Assembly: GCF_019900845.1 (NCBI RefSeq)
Contig: NZ_CP074570.1
Span: forward strand, 1,798,001-1,862,000
Direction: 5' to 3'
DNA: 64,000 nucleotides
DNA from: Paraneptunicella aestuarii
Lineage (GTDB): Bacteria; Pseudomonadota; Gammaproteobacteria; Enterobacterales; Alteromonadaceae
Of the stretch, positions 4,038 through 61,456 are shown in pieces (the stretch's first letter is position 1; each line of letters starts with the position of its first letter). Below the pieces are notes generated by a model that saw only the letters and a program-made list of their open reading frames with translations, was not told the DNA's origin and did not search any database. The translations under genes were made by a program, and so were the position numbers.

Positions 4038-4913
4038 ATGAAACTTGTGAATGAAATGAATATTGCCCAGTGTTTAGCCTGGGCAAAACAAGTGCTATCG
4101 GAAGGTGAATCACCATCGATTGACGCAAAAGTGCTGCTATGTGATGTGCTAAAGCGTGACACTACATTTCTCATTACTTATCCCGAATATCAGCTTTCTG
4201 CTGAACAATTCCAACGCTTTCAAGCTATGGTGGCTCGGCGAGTAGAAGGCGAGCCTGTTGCCTATATTATCGGTACACAGGATTTCTGGACGCTCACCTT
4301 GAAAGTGAATGAACATACCTTGATCCCAAGGCCCGAAACCGAGTTATTGGTTGAGACGGTTTTGTCCCTGGTTACAAGTCATCCTCAGAATGAACAACAA
4401 CATCCGTTAAGGATTTTGGATTTAGGTACTGGCACTGGAGCGATTGCGCTGGCTTTGGCTTCGGAATTACCAAAGGCACAAGTTGAAGCGGTTGACCGCA
4501 TTCCAGAAGCGGTTGAGCTTGCCAAAGAGAACGCTTCTAATTTAGCCATCAGCAACATCAAGATCAGTCAAAGTGATTGGTTTGATAATATCACTGATGA
4601 GCCTTTTCATTTTATTGTCACCAACCCGCCCTATGTTGAAGCTGACAGCCCTTGGTTAGTGCAAGGTGATGTGCGTTTTGAACCTGCCAGTGCATTGACC
4701 TCTGGTGACGACGGTCTTGATGATATTAGGTATATAATCGAACAATCAAAGGGTAGATTACTACTCTCTGGCTGGCTGCTGATTGAGCATGGTTACACCC
4801 AGAGCGAAGCTATTCAGAAACTTTTTCAACAAGCTGGATACCTTAATATTACTGCTGTTGAAGACTATTCTGGTCATCCTAGAATTTGCTATGCCCAAAA
4901 GTGTGTTGCATAA
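4038..4913 (+). CDS. prmC: Release factor glutamine N5-methyltransferase
   Basis: SAM-dependent methyltransferase that modifies the GGQ glutamine of RF1 and RF2. The N-terminal helical domain is followed by the conserved TLIPRPETE region (about residues 94-102). The SAM-binding DLGTGTG lies at 128-134, and the NPPY motif that binds the target glutamine at 196-199. Length (291) is a little above E. coli PrmC (277). A second ATG at 4056 (MNIAQCLAW) is an equally plausible start. Neither has a strong Shine-Dalgarno sequence, so the N-terminus is uncertain by six residues. Next to prfA, as usual. Confidence 0.96.
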   Translation: MKLVNEMNIAQCLAWAKQVLSEGESPSIDAKVLLCDVLKRDTTFLITYPEYQLSAEQFQRFQAMVARRVEGEPVAYIIGTQDFWTLTLKVNEHTLIPRPETELLVETVLSLVTSHPQNEQQHPLRILDLGTGTGAIALALASELPKAQVEAVDRIPEAVELAKENASNLAISNIKISQSDWFDNITDEPFHFIVTNPPYVEADSPWLVQGDVRFEPASALTSGDDGLDDIRYIIEQSKGRLLLSGWLLIEHGYTQSEAIQKLFQQAGYLNITAVEDYSGHPRICYAQKCVA

Positions 4914-4979
4914 AAACCACGAACAAGTTAGTTTTGAATTTGTATAACTTATGAGGTGAGCCACTTTAGAGGTGGGGGT

Positions 4980-6524
4980 ATGTCTGACGATTTTCTTTTT
5001 GCTGATGATGTAGAAGAAGAAACGCTGCCAGAACGTGCTTCATGGAAGGTGCTTATCGTCGATGATGAGCCAGAAATACACGCAGTAACTAAACTGGCAT
5101 TAAATGATTTTATTTTTCAAGATCGCGATATCGAATTTATCAGCGCCCATAGTGGCGAGGATGCTAAGCGGGTATTGCGTGAACATAATGATATCGCGGT
5201 TATTTTGCTGGATGTTGTTATGGAAACTGACGATGCGGGATTACGCGTCGCAAAATTTATTCGCGATGAAATAAATAACTATTTCACCCGTATTATTCTG
5301 CGTACCGGTCAGCCGGGGCAGGCGCCTGAGCTTGATGTCATTCTTAATTACGACATCAACGACTATAAATCTAAAACAGAATTAACATCACAAAAGCTGT
5401 TCACTTCGGTGATTTCGGCTTTGCGTTCTTATCGCGATATTATCAACCTGGAAAACAGTCGTAGAGGATTGGAAAGTATTCTGACGGCGTCTTCAAACCT
5501 GTTCAACCTTCGTACTTTAGATGGTTTTATGAATGGGTTGGTACAGCAATTAACATCCTTAATTGGTGGTGCTGCACAAGAGGTGTCCTATATTTCGGCT
5601 CCGTCTGCCAGCAGTGGGTTGGATGAGTTGGCTGATTATGTGTTGTATAAGGGCAAATGTGGTGATGACAAGGTTTCCGTTAATTCTGTATTGAATTCAG
5701 TTAATGACGAGCAATTGCAAGCGTGTCGCTCGGCTCTAGCCAACAAAAGTGTGGTGATTCAGGATGATTTTCTGGTGGCTTATTGCCACAGCAATCATCA
5801 ACGAGGTTCTTTGTTATTGCTGACTGGATTGCCACGTCCTTTGGACGATTATGATCGTAATTTGATTGAGCTTTTTGCCAGCAATGTGCAGGTCGCTTTT
5901 GAGCAAGTGCAGCTGACCAGTGAAGTTGAAGCCAATCAAAAAGAGATATTGGAGCAAGTGAGTAAAGCTTTGGTATGTCGTTTGAGCGGTGGACGCCATA
6001 TTCAGCGTGTTACTTTGTTATGTGAGTTGTTGGCTCAAAAAGCAGGTTTATCTCAAGATGACATTGATGTGTTGTCGTTAGCGGTGCGCTTACACGATAT
6101 TGGTTCTTTGGTTGTTCCTGTTAACCTATTGAGTAAATCGGGGGAACTGGCTCCTGAAGAGATGGATTTGGTGCGTCAGCATGTTAGTGAAGATATTGCT
6201 GTAATTAAAGATGCGGAGCATCCTGTTATCAAAACTGCGGCGATGCTGGCTCGTGAACAGTATGAATGCTGGGACGGTTCCGGGTATCCCAAATCGTTGA
6301 AACAGGAACAGATACATATTTTTAGCCGTATTCTGGCGATTGTGGATGAGTACGATTCTTTGCGCAATGAAAAGTGTAAGCCGAAATATCGACCGTTGCC
6401 GGAAGTGGTGCAGTATTTTCAGTCTGCAAAAGGGAGTTTGTTCGATCCGCAGTTAGTGGATCTGCTCTTGTCGGACATTGAGCATTTTGAAGATATTATA
6501 TCTAAAAACCCGGATTCACATTAA
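4980..6524 (+). CDS. Response regulator with REC, DUF3369-like and degenerate HD-GYP domains
   Basis: Two-component output protein of RpfG-like architecture. The start at 4980 is chosen because a purine-rich AGAGGTGGGGG lies just upstream; the in-frame GTG at 4956 lacks comparable support. Residues 22-150 are a receiver with acidic pocket D28/D29 and phospho-acceptor D78 (VILLDVV). About 165-325 matches the GAF-like DUF3369 linker. The C-terminal domain has the HD pair (H372-D373), H401, D456 and the GYP signature at 435-437. However, the lysine of HDIGK is Ser376, and the paired histidines before the GYP are Q427-Y428. In active c-di-GMP phosphodiesterases these residues bind metal or catalyse, so activity is doubtful. 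It sits between prmC and sirB2, where enterobacteria have no gene. No partner kinase is adjacent. Confidence 0.88.
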   Translation: MSDDFLFADDVEEETLPERASWKVLIVDDEPEIHAVTKLALNDFIFQDRDIEFISAHSGEDAKRVLREHNDIAVILLDVVMETDDAGLRVAKFIRDEINNYFTRIILRTGQPGQAPELDVILNYDINDYKSKTELTSQKLFTSVISALRSYRDIINLENSRRGLESILTASSNLFNLRTLDGFMNGLVQQLTSLIGGAAQEVSYISAPSASSGLDELADYVLYKGKCGDDKVSVNSVLNSVNDEQLQACRSALANKSVVIQDDFLVAYCHSNHQRGSLLLLTGLPRPLDDYDRNLIELFASNVQVAFEQVQLTSEVEANQKEILEQVSKALVCRLSGGRHIQRVTLLCELLAQKAGLSQDDIDVLSLAVRLHDIGSLVVPVNLLSKSGELAPEEMDLVRQHVSEDIAVIKDAEHPVIKTAAMLAREQYECWDGSGYPKSLKQEQIHIFSRILAIVDEYDSLRNEKCKPKYRPLPEVVQYFQSAKGSLFDPQLVDLLLSDIEHFEDIISKNPDSH

Positions 6525-6636
6525 AAACTCCTCTTTTCTACATAAAAATTGAAGGTAACGATAAAGTTACCTTTAATTTTTCTTTCAATATCAGTACATT
6601 TGCCCACGGTAATTTCGAACTATCATCGAGGATTTT

Positions 6637-7014
6637 ATGTACTTTTTCGTTAAACACCTGCACATGTCAGCGGTTGCTATTAGTTTATCGCTATTTATTC
6701 TGCGCTTTTACTGGTTAAACCGTGACCCGGAAAAGCTACAAAGAAAGTGGGTGAAGGTGGCTCCACACATTGTTGATACTATCCTGCTACTAAGTGCGTT
6801 AACGCTTTGCTTTATCATTCAGCAGTATCCGTTCGTTGATGCCTGGTTAACGGAAAAAGTGATTGGCTTGGTGTTTTACATTTTGATGGGGTTATATGCG
6901 CTTAAACTGGGTCGTAATATGTTGATGCGTTGGTTAGGCTTTTTGGGCGCGATTGCCTGGTTAGTCTTTATCGCTAAAGTGGCGGTTTTAAAGCATCCTA
7001 TTTTATTTGGGTAA
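6637..7014 (+). CDS. SirB2 family inner-membrane protein
   Basis: Small integral membrane protein (125 residues) with about four hydrophobic segments (roughly residues 8-24, 45-63, 74-92 and 98-117). The family signature is KHLHMSAVAISLSLFILR near the N-terminus, with the conserved basic WLNRD and HIVDTILL segments. The biochemical role is not established; the family name comes from a Salmonella invasion-gene screen. The equivalent E. coli gene ychQ lies in the same place, between prmC and ychA, which supports the call. Confidence 0.85.
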   Translation: MYFFVKHLHMSAVAISLSLFILRFYWLNRDPEKLQRKWVKVAPHIVDTILLLSALTLCFIIQQYPFVDAWLTEKVIGLVFYILMGLYALKLGRNMLMRWLGFLGAIAWLVFIAKVAVLKHPILFG

Positions 7015-58607: not shown

Positions 58608-58641
58608 TTGCTTTTGCTATTCCCATTAATTAAAGGTTAAA

Positions 58642-58667
58642 CCACAGCCGCTTGAATGCGGCTGTGG
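58642..58667. terminator. Terminator between the convergent transporter and isonitrile-fusion genes
   Basis: A perfect 10-bp stem CCACAGCCGC / GCGGCTGTGG with a TTGAAT loop. On the plus strand it is followed by a short T-run (TGATTT) and on the minus strand by a T-rich run, so it can serve both genes. Confidence 0.8.
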
Positions 58668-58684
58668 TGATTTAATCCCTCATT

Positions 58685-60631
58685 TTAAACAATCGCTTCC
58701 AACTGATTCGCTTTCCTCTTTCTATACAGCTGTTGGTTCTCGTAGCTTAAGTGTTTGAATGGGCTGTTGATTGCTGGGGGTTGTAGTTGAATACGCCAAA
58801 GTTCTCGATAGCCTTTGAATTCGGTACGGCCATGGAGCATTGTCTCGTTATTAATGAGGATGGCGTCACCGGGCTGCATGGCGAGTTTAAACATATTGGA
58901 TTCCGACATGCATATGGCTCGTAGAATCTTTTCCAATTGCGCCATGTCTTTGAACTCTGGTGAATCAACAATTTTGGAATAATTCGGCTGGATAGTGTTT
59001 GGGTGGTCTTTGCTATCCCAGACTTCCCACCATCGAATAATGTCTTCCTGTAGCCATTTGGAGTGCATGACGATAGGGTACACTCGTTCAATGCCGCCAA
59101 AATAGCTTTGTTCAGTGAAATAGCTTAAGTGGGTATTGCGTAGCGATTCTCGTAAGTGTCCATTGATAGACAAACTGGCATTTAGAGTATCCACTAACAA
59201 ACTGAGTCCTTGCTGAGCAGGATCGGCAGTCTCCATTCTATGGCAATAGAGGGTGAATTCCCGGGGGGTGTAATCGCTGTATTTATGAATGCTTTGATCA
59301 ATGTTCATATAAGCGGGCGGGCTATTGAGATCCCAGTGAATCGGTAATCCTTCTTCAGAATCAACCGAAGAGGGCGGCTTGCCTTGATGACCTATCTCGG
59401 GGGCTACAACATGGGTGAATCCAAATTTCCATGGGATCATCTTACCGCGTTTTTGATACCAATTTTCGTAGTCTTTCGAGGTGTGGAAACGCTCGAAATT
59501 TCTAAGTACGACTACGCCAAACTGTTTGTTTAAGGCAGTTAGCTCATTATTGTCAAAATCATGCAATGACAAGCCGGTGTTTTTACCGTCGATAATGAGC
59601 CCGCACTGATGACGGATTAAAGACAGTTCCAGTTTGCAATATTGTTCTAAAACAGAGGGTTTTGCGCTTGATAGTTTTATCAGTAGCCAAGGTGAGTTTT
59701 TATATTGAACTGGCAATAAAACCTGAGAGCCAATATGGGTCTCTACCTGATGTTCGATAAGGGGAGCAATGCTGAATTGTGCATTGGATGTATCAAATAG
59801 CACGGTGTTATGCCAAGGGGTTTTAATAGAACCTTTTTCGATGACGCTTTTCTCAAATAAAGCCACACTATATTTGCTTCCATTAAATGGATGGTCATGA
59901 ATGCTAAGTCGGATATAGTCGTCGTAGTGTTTTGCCAGGAATTTATCCAGCGCTTTACCTTGTAACATCATGCCTTTGGCAATATCGGATATACGCTGAT
60001 TCCTTTCTTTTTTGGTCATAGCGTTAGTGAGTGGTCTTTGGTCTTCGCACATGAATCGCTTCATGCCGATGTAAGTCAGGTGTACGTTTTCATCGGTTTC
60101 AAGCAAGTTGTCAAAGTTGTCCTGATACTGCTTGTCTCCATAAAGTGCCCGTAGTGCATCGGAATATTCATGCACTTCATAGGCAGCAAACTCTTGGAAA
60201 TGTTGAAAGTTTGTGACGGCAATAATGTCGCTGGCGTTGAAGCTGTTGATGATCTGCTTCAAGCCTTCTGAATACTGGTAATGGTGAGTCAAATCGACAC
60301 TAATGAACTCACTGAATGTATGGTAGTCAGAAAATATCGTAACAATAGAGCCTTGCGGATAGATAGACTCTATATTTCTGATGGTTTTAACCAGCTTTTT
60401 GATAGCTAGATATTCCCCCATATCAGGCTTTGTCCCCAACACTTTATTGCGGTTGACTGACTTACAGGGAAACGCAGGTAGAATAAATCGAATCGGTTGC
60501 TTATTTTCTACATGTAGTTTTATTTGGCTTTTAAGTTTTTCATATCCTTCGTGTGTGGAATTATTACAGATTAAAACTTCTTGAGTTAATTCAAATAATA
60601 TTAGATCAACAATATTTTCATTATCGCGCAT
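58685..60631 (-). CDS. Fused isonitrile synthase (PvcA/DIT1-like) and Fe(II)/2-oxoglutarate oxygenase (PvcB/TauD-like)
   Basis: 648 residues. Residues about 45-300 match the isocyanide synthase family: LPAFPCKS (51-58) and DMGE (70-73), then TIFSDYHTF (98-106), IRLSIH (240-245) and TPWH (271-274). Family members convert the amine of Tyr or Trp plus a C1 from ribulose-5-phosphate into an isonitrile. The SDG triplet I recall for characterised members reads SDY here (101-103). Residues about 350-620 are a TauD-type oxygenase with iron ligands His432, Asp434 (HWD) and His600 (MLHGR), and a 2-oxoglutarate Arg at 613 or 609. In Pseudomonas these are separate genes, pvcA and pvcB. No pvcC/D, peptide synthetase or exporter lies nearby. 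The amino-acid substrate cannot be read from the sequence. Confidence 0.87.
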   Translation of the reverse strand: MRDNENIVDLILFELTQEVLICNNSTHEGYEKLKSQIKLHVENKQPIRFILPAFPCKSVNRNKVLGTKPDMGEYLAIKKLVKTIRNIESIYPQGSIVTIFSDYHTFSEFISVDLTHHYQYSEGLKQIINSFNASDIIAVTNFQHFQEFAAYEVHEYSDALRALYGDKQYQDNFDNLLETDENVHLTYIGMKRFMCEDQRPLTNAMTKKERNQRISDIAKGMMLQGKALDKFLAKHYDDYIRLSIHDHPFNGSKYSVALFEKSVIEKGSIKTPWHNTVLFDTSNAQFSIAPLIEHQVETHIGSQVLLPVQYKNSPWLLIKLSSAKPSVLEQYCKLELSLIRHQCGLIIDGKNTGLSLHDFDNNELTALNKQFGVVVLRNFERFHTSKDYENWYQKRGKMIPWKFGFTHVVAPEIGHQGKPPSSVDSEEGLPIHWDLNSPPAYMNIDQSIHKYSDYTPREFTLYCHRMETADPAQQGLSLLVDTLNASLSINGHLRESLRNTHLSYFTEQSYFGGIERVYPIVMHSKWLQEDIIRWWEVWDSKDHPNTIQPNYSKIVDSPEFKDMAQLEKILRAICMSESNMFKLAMQPGDAILINNETMLHGRTEFKGYRELWRIQLQPPAINSPFKHLSYENQQLYRKRKANQLEAIV

Positions 60632-60790
60632 GATTTTACCCTGCTTTTGTAAAATTTCGTGATTATGAAAAAGTAGAAGCCTAATTTATTTGTGTCAAAT
60701 GGATAATAATTAGAGCTTGGATTAATCAAGTATGGTTAACTCTTTTTTGCGGTAATTTAAATGCTCGCTTTGTTTTGTTTTTTGCTCTTT

Positions 60791-61456
60791 CTATTTAATT
60801 ATGTTCAATAGTTCACTAAATGAATTAAGTACAAAGTCAGGATTTTCTGATGCAATGGGCTTACCGTGATTGTATCCATAAGTGAATGCTGCAACGGGAA
60901 TATGGGCATTTCTCGCTGCCTGAATGTCATTACTTGAATCGCCAATCATCATGGTTTCTTCGGGCTTGTATCCCCGTTCTGACATGCATTTGAGCAGCAT
61001 TTCAGGATGTGGTTTTTTGTTCACTACATCGTCACCACCAACAAAAAACGGGAAGTAGCTGCTAATGTTCAAGGCATTCAATATAGGGGCAATCATTGCT
61101 GTTGGCTTGTTTGTCGCTATCGAGAAATCAAGCTCTTTTTCCTGTAATTTATCTAAAGTTTCAATAACTTGAGGGTAAAGGTGCGTTTTGTCGGTGCAAC
61201 ATTGCGCGTAATGATGTTTGATGCTTTGAAGTGCTTTGCCTTTCATTTTTTCAATGGCATCAGTATCTTCTAAAGCGTTCTCTAAAGCGCGAGCCAGTAA
61301 AACTTCGATACCTTTGCCGACCCATTCTTGTACCTGTGTTTCTTCCACCACCGATAAGCCAAATTCCAGCAAGGTTTTATTCAATGCCTGAGCTATATCT
61401 GGCGCGCTATTTACCAAGGTACCATCCAGATCAAAGATAAGAAATTTTACGGTCAT
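60791..61456 (-). CDS. gph: HAD hydrolase, phosphoglycolate phosphatase type
   Basis: 221 residues. HAD motif I FDLDGTLVNSAP at the N-terminus (nucleophile Asp near residue 9), motif II around SIATNKP, motif III lysine in KKPHPEMLL, and motif IV IGDSSNDIQAARNA. The length and the QALN segment fit Gph, which removes phosphate from 2-phosphoglycolate. It is not near dam/rpe as in enterobacteria, so a paralogue (for example MupP-like) remains possible. Confidence 0.82.
   Translation of the reverse strand: MTVKFLIFDLDGTLVNSAPDIAQALNKTLLEFGLSVVEETQVQEWVGKGIEVLLARALENALEDTDAIEKMKGKALQSIKHHYAQCCTDKTHLYPQVIETLDKLQEKELDFSIATNKPTAMIAPILNALNISSYFPFFVGGDDVVNKKPHPEMLLKCMSERGYKPEETMMIGDSSNDIQAARNAHIPVAAFTYGYNHGKPIASENPDFVLNSFSELLNIIK

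Follow-up and report, generated by a model that had tools for sequence, protein, structure and literature searches.

The window analysed here is a 64,000-nt stretch of the Paraneptunicella aestuarii genome (contig NZ_CP074570.1, positions 1,798,001 to 1,862,000). On its minus strand it carries a gene predicted to encode an isonitrile (isocyanide) synthase (ICS) and an Fe(II)/2-oxoglutarate oxygenase in one polypeptide. The features of this gene, in window coordinates, are as follows.

58685..60631, minus strand: predicted fused isonitrile synthase / Fe(II)-2-oxoglutarate desaturase gene, 648 amino acids (aa), ATG start
59777..60523, minus strand: isonitrile synthase domain, residues 37–285
60317..60331, minus strand: SDYHT, residues 101–105, a clade signature replacing the SDG of PvcA
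58790..59572, minus strand: TauD/PIsnB-like Fe(II)/2-oxoglutarate oxygenase domain, residues 354–614
59330..59338, minus strand: HxD iron ligands H432 and D434, aligned with His101/Asp103 of PIsnB (numbering of PMC9467999)
58832..58834, minus strand: distal iron ligand H600 (in LHGR), corresponding in the alignment to PIsnB His250
58793..58807, minus strand: R609 to R613 (R613 corresponds to PIsnB Arg265, described in PMC9467999 as the substrate carboxylate anchor)

Judging from its sequence, the 648-residue open reading frame (ORF) is real and intact, with a PvcA-type synthase followed by a PvcB/PIsnB-type desaturase. The synthase motifs of the N terminal half and the HxD...H iron site of the C terminal half, first pointed out in a sequence-only reading of this DNA, are present in the translation (FPCKS, DMGE, SDY, RLSIH, TPWH and HWD start at residues 54, 70, 101, 241, 271 and 432). 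The Pfam family DIT1_PvcA (PF05141) matches residues 37–285 with 211.6 bits, passing the cut-off of 26.4, and TauD (PF02668) matches residues 354–614 with 62.3 bits (cut-off 27). With PF05141 and PF02668 in one polypeptide, the protein falls within the two-domain ICS-DOX definition given by Lim 2018 (PMC5974471). The proposed search for other fused homologues returned many: there are 412 relatives at E≤0.001, and the best 41 of the 120 matches listed, among them the P. aestuarii protein itself (P0001), span at least 90% of the chain as a single protein. A read-through caused by a sequencing error joining two genes was considered and is rejected, since relatives with the same architecture are common. 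Composition gave no signal of recent foreign origin (41.6% GC, compared with 40.5–46.2% in the seven neighbours computed). A search for plasmid copies gave 13 records, in which a single place spanned at least 80% of the query, at 23.8% identity.

A structural model with a predicted template modelling score (pTM) of 0.94 places both domains in one confidently predicted arrangement; the channelling between domains envisaged in the sequence-only reading would be a further, putative feature. Superposition on PvcA and PvcB had been suggested as a check, and both halves fit: the N terminal half has the PvcA fold and aligns structurally with PvcA/PIsnA (PDB 3e59, 9dh4 and 9dhm) at 25–29% identity, and the closest solved oxygenases to the C terminal half are PIsnB and PvcB (PDB 7tcl, 3eat and 4ylm). 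Most rows of this Foldseek comparison cover residues 311–623. In the synthase half, D102, R241, I244, H245, K253, P272, W273 and H274 are invariant across 70 aligned ICS rows, the fused protein included. In the oxygenase half the iron triad H432, D434 and H600 is complete in the alignment, and R609, R613 and W401 match Arg261, Arg265 and Trp74 of PIsnB in a profile alignment. We take the position of R609 to be that of the 2-oxoglutarate arginine, as in TauD. Arg265 anchors the substrate carboxylate in PIsnB with Trp74 as its partner (PMC9467999), and R613 and W401 are the equivalent pair in the fused protein. The single synthase-oxygenase chain that the sequence-only reading had put forward is thus agreed upon, for both halves, by the Pfam, PDB-profile and AlphaFold comparisons; these strongly support the reading of the protein as isonitrile synthase plus 2-oxoglutarate oxygenase, and it is almost certainly a bifunctional isonitrile enzyme.

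We consider it likely that the protein acts as a single-chain two-step isonitrile enzyme, possibly helped by a Gph-type HAD phosphatase encoded next to it. A route to isonitriles from ribulose-5-phosphate is stated in PMC7949033. The substrate, the product, the order of the steps and the role of the phosphatase are what we infer from the observed domains, folds, residues, clade and context. In the N terminal domain an aromatic amino acid, L-tyrosine being the likeliest, would react through its amino group with ribulose-5-phosphate and yield an isonitrile acid, which the C terminal Fe(II)/2-oxoglutarate domain would then desaturate to a vinyl isonitrile or an isocyanoacrylate, as PIsnB and PvcB do. 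A vinyl product is slightly favoured, because the profile is nearer to PIsnB than to PvcB. These two steps are suggested by strong homology. In a third, more speculative step the adjacent HAD would clear phosphate from the sugar-phosphate remnant or from another phosphorylated by-product.

The architecture itself is not new, since ICS-DOX fusions have been published. Two-domain proteins have been reported both in bacteria (V. cholerae IsnAB) and in fungi (XanB and IcsB; A. fumigatus), XanB being proposed to turn L-Tyr in two steps into the xanthocillin precursor (Lim 2018, PMC5974471), and ICS-TauD proteins make up 36.2% of fungal ICS proteins (Nickles 2023, PMC10153163). The earlier statement that these functions reside on two adjacent genes in characterised bacteria is therefore incomplete. 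IsnAB, XanB and IcsB share both domains in one chain with the P. aestuarii protein, to which the named fungal fusions among the matches listed are 22–25% identical over at least 90% of the chain. However, the three fungal fusions checked have SDG or SDA where the P. aestuarii protein has SDY, and PvcA/PIsnA are separate proteins with SDG. By sequence comparison, the enzyme is a member of the known ICS-DOX fusions, distinguished by an SDY clade with an animal branch and by a candidate phosphatase partner.

Bacterial fusions like the P. aestuarii protein are here called class A. Class B, a grouping made in this analysis, comprises fusions from Thalassomonas, Pseudoalteromonas, Shewanella, Dickeya and Pseudomonas that likewise have ICS followed by TauD in one chain. 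They differ from the P. aestuarii protein in identity (27–30% in the four compared), in carrying SDG (16 of 16 class B rows checked) and in branching apart from it in the ICS tree, where they are represented by three rows; at each of the six class B loci examined there is an additional ICS gene separate from the fusion.

In a 99-row ICS tree, 30 bacterial fusion rows, 16 animal-like rows and the long-branched P0048 form one clade (SH-aLRT 100), set apart from the PvcA-type and fungal rows, with support of 91 for the bacterial and 92 for the animal-like side. A careful tree of 37 rows, from which other families were left out, separates the bacterial and the animal-like rows with support 100/100. 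Only some PF05141 loci from whole genomes were tried for the 99-row tree, and 17 of these 18 were kept as monodomain rows (L018 was left out); three rows labelled “_mono” (L006, L047 and L048) are actually class B fusions, and six near-duplicate class A rows were marked for removal. Long class A and class B branches meet in this tree, so we make no claim on how the two classes are related. SDY occurs in 33 of 35 bacterial class A rows (some of them near copies; the other two have SDF), in all 14 animal-like rows and in P0048, whereas six other rows have SDG (five) or SDA (one) at this position. P0133 and P0142 also have SDY. The named animals in the clade are Clytia hemisphaerica (P0036) and Rhopilema esculentum (P0142, a fragment of 391 aa from a 15.0-Mb contig), and P0133, a EukProt record, is presumably from Aurelia. 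On this evidence of alignment and trees, SDY, which in the sequence-only reading might change substrate choice, marks a supported clade whose fusions come from Gammaproteobacteria and from animals of the jellyfish group, and is no quirk of one gene. The eukaryotes listed with ICS in a passage of PMC5974471 are fungi, oomycetes, an amoebozoan and a moss, animals not being among them there; within the limited collection searched, we found no literature linking isocyanide synthase to cnidarians. The tree also holds a second eukaryotic-looking ICS group (P0053, P0054, P0058, P0062–P0064 and P0074), whose one named member is the rotifer Rotaria sordida. P0053 and P0054 are ICS-TauD fusions with SDGRV.

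The surroundings of the fused gene contain three further features.

58641..58668, no strand assigned: probable terminator hairpin with an 11-bp stem, located where the fused gene and the DASS transporter gene converge (-28.5 kcal/mol, z -5.9)
60632..60790, minus strand: gap of 159 bp between the phosphatase gene and the fused gene
60791..61456, minus strand: candidate partner gene upstream of the fused gene and in the same orientation, encoding a 221-aa phosphoglycolate-phosphatase-like HAD

The gene had been described as standing alone and closed by a terminator. The hairpin is real; it was found by folding, its T tract is weak, and a consensus scan reported no minus strand terminator. The gene does not stand alone, as the HAD phosphatase gene lies 159 bp upstream on the same strand. 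The further remark that no synthetase, flavin enzyme or exporter is nearby agrees with a Pfam scan of four neighbours (nagZ, the DASS symporter, the HAD and csiV), none of which is of these kinds; the remaining ORFs of the window were covered by a listing alone. The DASS gene is next to csiV-mfd in two (G034 and G010) of the four relatives compared. In P. aestuarii the fused gene and the HAD lie between them, apparently in the same insertion. In a genome of the same genus (G001), a nonribosomal peptide synthetase-polyketide synthase gene was found on the far side of DASS (L082:2–6205, minus strand), and secondary-metabolism genes may use the DASS flank as an accessory site.

The HAD matches HAD_2 with 154 bits and passes the phosphoglycolate phosphatase threshold of NCBIfam PRK13222.1-2 (238.9 bits, cut-off 225), with the motifs DLDGT, TNK, KKPHP and GDSSND all intact. 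Its best relative among six genomes is 42% identical (G010), and the other HADs of its own genome are at most 33% identical. Chances are about even that it is an ordinary phosphoglycolate phosphatase unrelated to the isonitrile gene, a reading consistent with the NCBIfam score and with a gap that is long for an operon. Several observations weigh in the same direction and against a partnership: the protein is the most Gph-like HAD found in the P. aestuarii genome and may be a housekeeping gene, it groups with canonical Gph and not with class B HADs (one HAD row from P. aestuarii was left out), and no phosphatase was found beside the other intact class A loci in nine neighbours scanned (P. spelaei and two Vibrio) or in two Algicola neighbours. 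At none of the other class A loci examined does a HAD adjoin the fused gene: with four HADs as blastp queries against the loci retrieved, matches lay further away, weak HADs about 5–6 kb from the fusion in two Vibrio loci and a canonical Gph at about 8 kb in three. Among the papers listed in a search of the limited collection, none pairs isonitrile/isocyanide synthase with HAD or phosphoglycolate phosphatase.

Against an ordinary Gph stand the apparent shared insertion between DASS and csiV and the company of HADs with class B fusions. A HAD phosphatase, adjacent or fused, is present at all six class B loci examined. In Thalassomonas haliotis it is fused at the N terminus (822 aa), and in four Dickeya-like genomes it lies between a monodomain ICS and the class B fusion. 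In G030 it lies between two ICS genes, the second of which is 62% identical to the Thalassomonas one on a contig that ends before any TauD part. Seven of 53 class B proteins have a fused HAD, and another 11 have an N terminal domain with an HC[AV]ANYR loop; the domain scan covered eight of the 53 and P0150 (the G014 protein). The loop domain gave a weak PF22741 match in three of six scanned (25–32 bits against a cut-off of 27, two above it) and might be PTP/DSP-like. The usual loop of such phosphatases is CX5R, from which HC[AV]ANYR differs, so that activity is uncertain. Because the neighbouring HAD groups with canonical Gph, the class B parallel is one of functional analogy, not of common descent. 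A possible functional link between the HAD and the isonitrile gene is suggested by a shared apparent insertion and strand and by the class B precedent, yet the HADs are not orthologous.

As HADs are beside or fused to class B fusions at six of six loci, the phosphatase may, by analogy, be an unrecognised partner of ribulose-5-phosphate-dependent isonitrile synthesis; clearing phosphate from the by-product is also the task supposed for the HADs of class B. A wider proposal, which we put forward tentatively and hold slightly short of even odds, is that phosphatase domains are an unrecognised working part of this synthesis. HADs would have been recruited at least twice (the Gph type beside the P. 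aestuarii gene, another HAD clade with class B), with a PTP/DSP-like domain in further class B proteins, and the SDY enzyme would be common to Gammaproteobacteria and medusozoans, jellyfish possibly making amino-acid isonitriles with a bacterial-type enzyme. A recurring phosphatase partner, if true, would point to a missing step, namely the fate of the ribulose-5-phosphate phosphate, and would be a new genome-mining marker for isonitrile pathways.

The identity of the product was approached by a published rule, in which Lys/Arg107 and Asn/His188 forecast a vinyl isonitrile (PIsnB) and Leu and Cys an isocyanoacrylate (PvcB), although single-residue swaps at these positions left the product unchanged (PMC9467999). 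Two results count against a standard tyrosine-derived product. The fused protein has S452 and W535 at the forecast positions, neither the K107/N188 of the separate protein PIsnB nor the Leu/Cys of the likewise separate PvcB, so that the rule is undecided. It also scores 113.4 bits against the 600 of the NCBIfam equivalog for L-Tyr isonitrile synthase PvcA (NF045653), so far below the cut-off that tyrosine is not assigned by this rule. Furthermore, the stretch after HxD reads HWDLNSPP, not HWDGMYKP, and the insert following it is longer than in PIsnB/PvcB. Together with SDY for SDG, these differences would suit an undescribed isonitrile, made by an oxygenase half that hydroxylates or otherwise oxidises the isonitrile acid, or by a first domain that takes a non-tyrosine amino acid. 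We regard this as unlikely, though worth serious consideration, as the nearest solved oxygenases are exactly PIsnB and PvcB, and the carboxylate-anchoring R613 and W401 are retained.

Whether the oxygenase half is used was assessed from class A loci with genomic context, 16 in total: P. aestuarii, Algicola, Marinomonas, two Pseudomonas and 11 Vibrionaceae. The last are all the PF05141-bearing Vibrionaceae among 329 genomes searched, and all 11 have fusions. P. antarctica (L011) was set aside for its altered C terminal end, leaving 15 assessable loci; its fused ORF (L011:9884–11797, plus strand) lacks the part with the distal iron ligand and runs out into unrelated sequence close to a contig end. 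Iron site and arginines are intact in five of the 15 (P. aestuarii, Algicola, P. spelaei and two Vibrio), and at these no PvcB or FAD hydroxylase was found within about 4.5 kb. In the other ten the iron site is broken, and a separate PvcB-like gene and a FAD_binding_3-type hydroxylase lie beside all of them, with a LysR gene at nine. The separate PvcB copy of V. penaeicida scores 263 bits to 3eat. Both intact Vibrio loci retain a LysR 55–56% identical to that of V. penaeicida, but without PvcB. The P. aestuarii locus, with an intact site and neither additional gene, thus differs from nine of the 11 Vibrionaceae loci. When whole genomes were searched with one PvcB, the four intact ones covered (P. 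aestuarii included, P. spelaei excluded) gave no match other than the fused domain (23–24%), and nine of nine broken Vibrionaceae gave matches at 62–100%, 100% being the genome of the query. In one genome (G884) the separate PvcB is split over two frames (L073:11780–12681, minus strand) while the fused oxygenase is also broken; the pathway itself may be decaying there.

Mean identity in the broken class is 37.2% for the oxygenase against 68.4% for ICS (90 pairs), whereas in the intact class it is 53.0% against 50.0% (77 pairs); some of this contrast is to be expected from a division made on the iron site. Two near copies (L066 and L070) were left out, and pairs with at least 90% ICS identity were dropped (one of 78 intact, one of 91 degenerate). 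The broken domain has w of 0.065–0.12 in four close pairs (three in one group), about twice that of the ICS half or more; six pairs were computed and two were saturated. Since it remains in frame under purifying selection despite its lost ligands, a non-catalytic role seems to account for its retention.

Two results temper the association between iron site and PvcB. Counted on independent pairs it is not significant (one on supported branches, two on the best tree), and 16 further class A rows without context data are divided evenly, eight intact and eight broken. The C terminal oxygenase of the P. aestuarii fusion is nevertheless probably active, since its site is intact and every broken site at a class A locus of known context is accompanied by a separate PvcB. 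That the fused protein makes the isonitrile acid only, its oxygenase half being a structural pseudo-domain as in most Vibrio relatives, is very improbable: the ten retained but broken domains do point to a non-catalytic role, and P0016, one of the 16 further rows, keeps the iron ligands while both arginines are lost, so that ligands alone are no proof of activity, but in the P. aestuarii protein the full set of ligands, the two arginines and the cation-pi Trp are in place, and the search of its genome yielded no stand-alone PvcB that would make the domain dispensable. The lost iron sites next to stand-alone PvcB genes look like an evolutionary trace of one enzyme replacing another.

Isonitriles bind transition metals, and the roles described for them include those of chalkophore, antimicrobial and inhibitor of insect phenoloxidase. 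A route that would run through a single gene, with its oxygenase site intact and with jellyfish members in its clade, offers a compact system in which domain cooperation and product control could be studied.

Other fusions of ICS were also observed. Five proteins of 526–554 aa (P0072, P0077, P0083, P0089 and P0149) combine a TetR-family regulator with an isonitrile synthase domain, perhaps as product-sensing or self-regulating synthases. In genome G289 (L077:8718–11306 and 4583–6676, both minus strand), an 862-aa fusion of cNMP-binding, isonitrile synthase and DUF924 domains adjoins an O-methyltransferase, a second ICS and a TauD-cytochrome P450 fusion.
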